From Clostridiaceae bacterium (GTDB taxonomy: Bacteria; Bacillota; Clostridia; DSM-8532): a stretch of 38,073 nt of DNA. The stretch covers positions 1 to 38,073 of the forward strand of contig JAAYKJ010000226.1 in the NCBI GenBank assembly GCA_012522505.1, in the 5' to 3' direction. Positions 36,218 through 38,073 of the stretch are shown piece after piece. Under the pieces are notes generated by a model. The model made no database searches. It worked only from the letters and a program-made list of their open reading frames with translations, and was not told where the DNA came from. Positions within the stretch are counted from its first letter, which is position 1. Every line of letters begins with the position of its first letter. Made by a program: the position numbers and the translations under genes.

Positions 36218-36520
36218 ATGATGACTGAAAAAGATATGGTCAACGACTATTTAAACTCATTAAAAAGCAGCTTAACTGGTTATGCCAATGCGATTTCCGA
36301 AACCAGCAATCCTGAACTTAGAAGAACTTTCCAACAAATGCGTGATGCTGATGAAGAACGCCAACAAAGATTGGCTCAATACGCGACTCAAAAAGGATAT
36401 TACCAGCCTGCGTCACAGGCACAGCCGAATCAGATACAACAGGTGTTTACACAATTGCAAGGCGGAGGACAGCAACAAGGGCAGCAGGGTATGCAAAACA
36501 GTCAAAACATGCGGATGTAA
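36218..36520 (+). CDS. Spore coat protein, CotF family
   Basis: 100 residues. Residues ~1-65 are a helical CotF-like domain (MVNDYLNSLKSSLTGYANAI, RTFQQMRDADEERQQRLAQY, KGYYQPA), and the tail is rich in Gln and Gly. CotF-like proteins are part of the outer layers of the endospore. AAGGAG precedes the start (two adjacent ATGs). A terminator follows at 36527. Confidence 0.8.
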   Translation: MMTEKDMVNDYLNSLKSSLTGYANAISETSNPELRRTFQQMRDADEERQQRLAQYATQKGYYQPASQAQPNQIQQVFTQLQGGGQQQGQQGMQNSQNMRM

Positions 36521-36526
36521 CAGAAT

Positions 36527-36567
36527 ACCAGGGTAGGTGTATCTGCCCTGGTTTAAACTTTATTATT
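36527..36567 (+). terminator. Terminator after the coat protein pair
   Basis: ACCAGGG (36527-36533) / CCCTGGT (36546-36552) stem with a 12-nt loop, then a T-rich but interrupted tail (TTAAACTTTATTATT). Confidence 0.65.
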
Positions 36568-36766
36568 ACCGGTTTCGAATTGGTAACAATCCACCATAAG
36601 CATATAATTGGTTACTCATCGTATTTCTGCAGTGTATGACAGAGCACAATTTGTTCTCGTCAGAACTGCTTTTCTGCCATCTTCTATTTACATCGAATTC
36701 GATTCATGTATAAGCCGAGGTGGCATTTTTTGGCATGCATATTTTTAAATATCCAGCAGACACGTA
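36568..36766. other. Intergenic region before the surface protein
   Basis: About 200 AT-rich bases between the coat terminator and the next promoter. I found no ORF, known RNA or repeat copy in it. Confidence 0.5.
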
Positions 36767-36794
36767 TTGACATATCATGGAGGCGTTGTATAAA
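36767..36794 (+). promoter_or_regulatory. Promoter of the surface protein gene
   Basis: Consensus TTGACA (36767-36772), a 16-bp spacer and TATAAA (36789-36794); TAAAAT two bases on is an alternative -10. Confidence 0.65.
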
Positions 36795-36832
36795 ATAGTA
36801 TATAAAATAAACAAATAAAGGAAAAAATAAGC

Positions 36833-38073
36833 ATGAAAAGAAATTTGGTAAAAAAAAGTACTAATAATGGCATTGTGTGTACTGATTCTGCAACAGAATT
36901 TTATTATTCAGGGCACTTTGATAACGAAAGATATCCATGTTGAGAACACATCTTCTATTTCAGAGCTATTGCCAGAGAAACTGCAAAAAGAAGAAATCGT
37001 ATCCGATGTCGAAGACGAAAATAGTTCATTATCAAATGTATTTGTTGCACCTGATAAATCATCTGCTACTGCGCAGGACATGATTAAATTGGATGTTCCG
37101 AAAAATGATGCAGATAATGCAGCCATTTCTCCGGAAGCTGAGCCAGAGGCTGAAAGTTATATAGAGCAGAAAGAGCTTTTTGTTGAAAAGAAACAGGACA
37201 ACCCTCCCGACATACATAAGGAAGTTCATACTGAAAAGACAACACCGTTAACACGGGATAAAGCGGGGTTGAGTACATCTCCAATTCCTGTTCAAACACG
37301 AGAAATACTCGCGGAACCGCAAATACATGAACAAAGAGAAATGCCGGAAGAGATGGATATGCCTGAATTGGTTTTGGATACATCTGAGCCCTGTAATGAT
37401 GAAGAAATGAGAACCCCTGTACCAGTTGAAGTACCTGAAAATGAAGAGATGCAAATTGATAACACCAATTCCGCAAATGAACCTGATATATTCATTGACC
37501 AAATTCAAAATGAAACAGTGCCTGCTCCAGCCATATCGATTACGAATATTTTCTTTACCGAAGAAGCTTATACCATGATGGTTAACGAGACGTGTCAGAC
37601 GGTGGTTCAGGTTGTTTATAACGATGATACAACGGCTGATATTACCGCCATGTGCGTATTTGATATATCTGATAAAACAGTGGCAGAAATCGATGCTGGT
37701 GGCGTATTATCCGCAAAGAAACCTGGACAAGCACAGGCTTGTGCAGAATACAACGGAAGGAGCTGCTCTGCAGATGTCTTTGTACAGCCGCAGCCTGTTA
37801 ATGTACCCGTGAATCTCAGAGCCGATAGCTTCCCAAACCGGATCAATATATCATGGGATGAGGTTGAATATGCTGATTTGTATGAGGTGGAAGCGGATGG
37901 AAACAGTTGTACCGTAGCCCAAACGGTATATACACATTCCGCTCTCTTTCCCAATACAACACATACATACCGAATAAAAGCAGCGAACGAATATGGAACA
38001 AGTGAATGGAGCAGTGTTTTGTCGGTAATGACAAAACTGGAAACACCCGTGAATCTGACTGCAGTTACAGAGG
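36833..38073 (+). CDS. Secreted surface protein with BIG2-like and fibronectin III domains (partial; frame change at an A8 tract)
   Basis: The ATG at 36833 has AAAGGAAA upstream and encodes MKRNLVKK, but its frame stops at a TGA at 36941. A second frame is open from before 36858 to the window edge and begins VLIMALCVLILQQNFIIQG, a hydrophobic core. The two halves join as one normal signal peptide if one A is removed from the A8 run (36850-36857). The only in-frame ATG in the long frame is at 36867, with no ribosome binding site and no basic N-region. Then follow a Glu/Pro-rich spacer of ~190 residues, a BIG2-like domain (~37530-37800), an Fn3 domain (~37800-38035) and the start of a second one. 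The 3' end lies outside the window. Confidence 0.7.
36850..36857 (+). repeat. A8 homopolymer in the signal peptide codons
   Basis: Eight A's between GGT and GTAC. With seven A's the start codon and the long frame would be joined; with eight they are not. It is a possible slippage or phase-variation site, or a sequencing error. Confidence 0.6.

Follow-up and report, generated by a model that had tools for sequence, protein, structure and literature searches.

A gene for a secreted protein with Big_2- and fn3-like domains, in which an A tract codes for lysines of the signal-peptide n-region, is found with its start and its body in different frames at the end of a clostridial contig, and the reading that we consider somewhat better than evenly probable is that this copy, with its eight A's, is off or nearly off, probably as the result of a one-base replication slip. 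The window, i.e., the whole stretch of DNA that was analysed (38,073 nucleotides), takes up contig C140 entirely, so that the gene lacks its 3' end; the contig belongs to a 3.29-Mb draft genome in 276 contigs (completeness 99.06, contamination 2.62). This genome was sampled by regions, for 1.23 Mb (37%).

Start region and break of the reading frame

The residues MKRNLVKK are encoded from the ATG at 36833-36835, and the A8 tract comes next, as read from the sequence (Table 1). The full translation of this start frame is MKRNLVKKSTNNGIVCTDSATEFYYSGHFDNERYPC, closed by its stop codon. In the frame that lies one off the start frame, a TAA is found at 36849-36851, after which the frame is free of stops from 36852 to the contig end, i.e., for 407 codons; this shifted frame begins KKVLIMALCVLILQQNFIIQG and includes the hydrophobic core VLIMALCVLIL, which is one frame away from the ATG at 36833. 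The original prediction had placed the A8 tract at the junction of the start frame and this core, with the protein frame open to the window edge, and these positions and frames were confirmed. The length of the tract sets the reading frame of the gene, as is found for the homopolymers of inlA-type phase-variable genes.

The core has a Kyte-Doolittle value of 3.53 over 11 residues, and values of at least 3.5 were reached by 0.23% of the stop-free 35-codon segments on the plus strand of the sampled genome pieces, which were used as the background. A textbook signal peptide had been foreseen here, and the n- and h-regions do fit this description, but no clear A-X-A cleavage site was seen in QQNFIIQGTLITKD; the homologue from genome G006, described below, has ANA (INAANADE). 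The ribosome binding site, which had been called good, is present but only moderate in its motif and distance from the start. A -1 ribosomal frameshift was considered and rejected, given that the -1 frame reads AAG TAC TAA, an immediate stop, and does not continue the protein.

Table 1. Features at the 3' end of the window
Feature	Position	Strand	Basis
Start frame as assembled: MKRNLVKK and 28 unrelated residues, then TGA (36941-36943)	36833..36943	+	Translation
A8 tract, point of frame loss	36850..36857	+	Sequence
Shine-Dalgarno-like AAAGGA, ~10 nt from ATG 36833	36817..36822	+	Sequence
Strong promoter-like site, sigma-70-type, TTGACA-18-TAAAAT, 11/12 consensus, kept in the C36 copy	36767..36796	+	Consensus match only
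Promoter segment, 111 bp, 93% identical to C36:39326-39436 (L003:1501-1611), there before a decayed VanY/M15-like open frame	36714..36824	+	DNA match
Intergenic repeat, 203 bp, second copy inverted in C126 33861-34064 (L002:1501-1704), 92% identical	36511..36713	.	DNA match
Frame coding for the secreted protein, open up to the contig end, where it is cut: hydrophobic core, acidic low-complexity linker, Big_2-like and fn3 domains	36852..38073	+	Frame, domain search, homologue

A runs in the sampled genome

Among the 2,351 runs of A6-A9 in the 1.23 Mb, the A8 of the window is the only clear one at which a start preceded by a Shine-Dalgarno-like site and a long open frame are separated by the A run. 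Most of the other listed pairs, as judged from their translations, were genes that adjoin or overlap each other, or frames lying inside or antisense to other genes. Given this single clear split and the 0.23% hydropathy figure, the core and the split together are more than chance. The possibility that the assembly has homopolymer errors throughout was also considered and rejected, given that no further clear split was found in the 1.23 Mb, whether at the 124 runs of A8-A9 or at the 549 runs of A7; the assembly thus shows no general homopolymer problem.

The A/T runs drop steeply in number beyond eight bases (118 A8 and 6 A9 in the 1.23 Mb), suggesting selection against runs of nine or more in this genome. 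Runs of A8 or longer reach 2.88 per 10 kb in the first 30 nt of the genes, as against about 0.5-0.7 further in, an approximately five-fold enrichment that reflects 8 runs among 925 genes, in a gene set of simple ORF calls from which genes with broken starts escape. A 5' bias of such tracts has been described for 99 genomes (PMC2831843), and the sampled genome agrees with it. Given this enrichment, there is nothing out of the ordinary in an A8 within a lysine-rich N-terminus, and the unusual part is its out-of-frame position.

The downstream gene and its homologues

Judged from its domains and relatives, the shifted frame is a real gene, and the domain matches and the homologues with a signal peptide make a secreted or surface protein its likely product. 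The matches to fn3 (20 bits, cutoff 25) and Big_2 (15.6 bits, cutoff 22.8) both fall below the Pfam gathering scores, and the Big_2/fn3 part is 46% identical (E=1.5e-46) to the protein L005 of G006 (MAG JAAYGP010000105, 'Clostridiaceae bacterium'), in which the fn3 domain passes the Pfam cutoff. This homologue has an intact start, MRKRMIMRFFIFTLTTLLFLQTSLI, and an uninterrupted, similarly placed signal peptide; its protein start MRKRMIMRFFIFTLTTLLFLQTSLIHNNLLINAANADE can be aligned by eye to MKRNLVKK followed by VLIMALCVLILQQNFIIQGTLI, a colinearity that is a visual judgement, given that automatic alignment scattered the N-terminus over gaps. A more distant relative, L156 of genome G347, has a signal peptide, ricin-like, Big_2-like and fn3 parts, and an SLH-repeat-like C-terminus, all labelled by eye. 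No comparable long A tract is present at the starts of L005 and L156, these homologues being few and distant. The original proposal that the signal peptide is split in a protein of surface type is well supported by the domain matches, the contiguous signal peptide of the homologue, and the 407-codon frame, whose lack of stops argues that the break is recent or tolerated. Of the description as an adhesin-like surface protein, the surface type is likely, while the adhesin is a guess from the Big_2 and fn3 domains only.

The DNA search for the same locus in three genomes of the genus matched the genome of the window only, the locus being absent from the other two, and no isolate of the same species came up; the family-level search gave matches in three genomes. 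The class- and order-level searches returned mostly generic fn3 arrays, and the one scan of genome contigs returned the G006 record only. A search of other contigs for the continuation of the gene gave nothing beyond fn3 look-alikes and one small piece in C12.

In the intergenic region upstream, the 203-bp repeat begins inside the final codons of two genes that are unrelated to each other (the one in the window being Coat_F-like), and its copy in the window ends exactly where the promoter segment starts. Elsewhere in the genome, the contig C124 (L031) has a cluster of large secreted proteins, formed by a protein with CBM3 and 13 fn3 domains, a protein with seven fn3 domains, and an RHS-repeat protein that runs off the contig end, and this cluster adjoins a transposase-like gene (identified by eye).

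Origin and fate of the A8 tract

The probable cause of the break would be a one-base slip of replication that added an A to the lysine-coding tract, following which ribosomes that start at the ATG at 36833 would be out of frame once eight residues are made and would meet the stop at 36941, with the gene off or nearly so. This account is supported by the promoter-like and Shine-Dalgarno-like sites just upstream of that ATG, by the intact start of the G006 homologue, and by the lack of a comparable split in the 1.23 Mb, while the single draft genome in its 276 contigs and the lack of conservation of the tract in the homologues read count against it. Going by published precedents, such a slip could revert, and RNA polymerase slippage on the A8 could yield a little full-length protein, so that reversion of the tract is possible and a weak transcriptional rescue plausible.

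The strongest of the other explanations, although still an unlikely one, is that the frameshift is a step towards gene loss, given that the same promoter segment in C36 precedes a frame-broken VanY/M15-like remnant; a gene has probably been lost behind this promoter before, which makes decay a fair rival, but a second lesion is absent from the 407 codons. A real A8 could be on its way to decay, be leaky or act as a switch, and the likelihoods given to these rivals here overlap. It is rather doubtful that the A8 itself is an artefact, with a true tract of A7, or a consensus that mixes A7 and A8 strains, and an intact gene: the genome is a MAG-like draft, homopolymers are where such errors fall, and the remainder of the gene is open, but the other A7-A9 runs speak against any general error of this kind. 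Very improbable, and rejected here, is a start at the ATG at 36867, the only other nearby one, which is in frame, encodes MALCVLILQQNF, and would remove the frame problem; it has neither a Shine-Dalgarno-like site nor a basic n-region, and the start of the homologue corresponds in position to the ATG at 36833 instead.

The loss of one A by RNA polymerase in a fraction of the transcripts, which would give some full-length protein from the A8 allele, is also unlikely. The A9 tract of IS1447 of Clostridium thermocellum slips both ways (PMC6211511), and the scarcity of A9 in the sampled genome is as expected if longer runs slip; on the other hand, on the poly(A) runs tested with it, the E. coli RNA polymerase made no deletion that could be detected (PMC6260861), nine is the length at which A runs are usually seen to be selected against (PMC1088944), the mRNA structure at the tract gives z = -1.1 with no stable structure upstream, and the A8 is not conserved. 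The original prediction of phase variation or functional slippage is a candidate reading only, given that the homologues examined lack such a tract, that A8 is common in lysine-rich N-termini of this genome, and that a single genome is concerned. We regard it as improbable that the A8 is a working switch, in which changes of tract length or RNA polymerase slippage would set which cells of this uncultured clostridium display the surface protein, and as slightly more improbable that selection has kept the tract as an on/off switch. The 5' position, the surface-type product, the long open frame, and the inlA parallel (PMC2831843) are in favour of such selection, but runs of this length are common enough in the first 30 nt of genes for the location to need no special reason, the homologues lack the tract, and it has only eight bases. 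Should the tract be variable in the population, the case would add to the inlA-like controls of surface proteins, here in a clostridium of which little is known, and would warn against labelling genes of this kind as pseudogenes; with a fixed tract or an error, the case is an ordinary one.

Comparison with known systems

The Ricin-lectin/Big_2/fn3 surface proteins of Clostridia (L005 of G006 and L156 of G347) share with the protein of the window a signal peptide and, going by its matches below the gathering scores, Big_2-like and fn3 domains, whereas the part in the window has an acidic linker and no ricin-type domain, its C-terminus being missing. IS1447 is similar in having an A tract in a clostridial gene whose continuing frame is shifted, but the conservation of its tract (7-9 A's) extends over 34 elements, and its slippage was measured, with 10 A's in 8/52 cDNA clones of the A9 tract and 8 A's in 9/52, seven A's being enough for the slippage product (PMC6211511), whereas the tract described here is not conserved.

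Finally, the direct parallel is the 5' poly(A) tract of inlA in Listeria monocytogenes, with A6 and A7 alleles and a truncated product (Orsi et al. 2010, PMC2831843), which also lies close to the start of a gene for a Gram-positive surface protein, in which a one-base change ends translation early. Allelic variants and reversion were measured in inlA, at about 5.5e-7 for A6 to A7 and 3.9e-8 for A7 to A6, as against a single A8 allele from one genome here, and the premature product has 36 residues in the window and 8 in inlA (PMC2831843).
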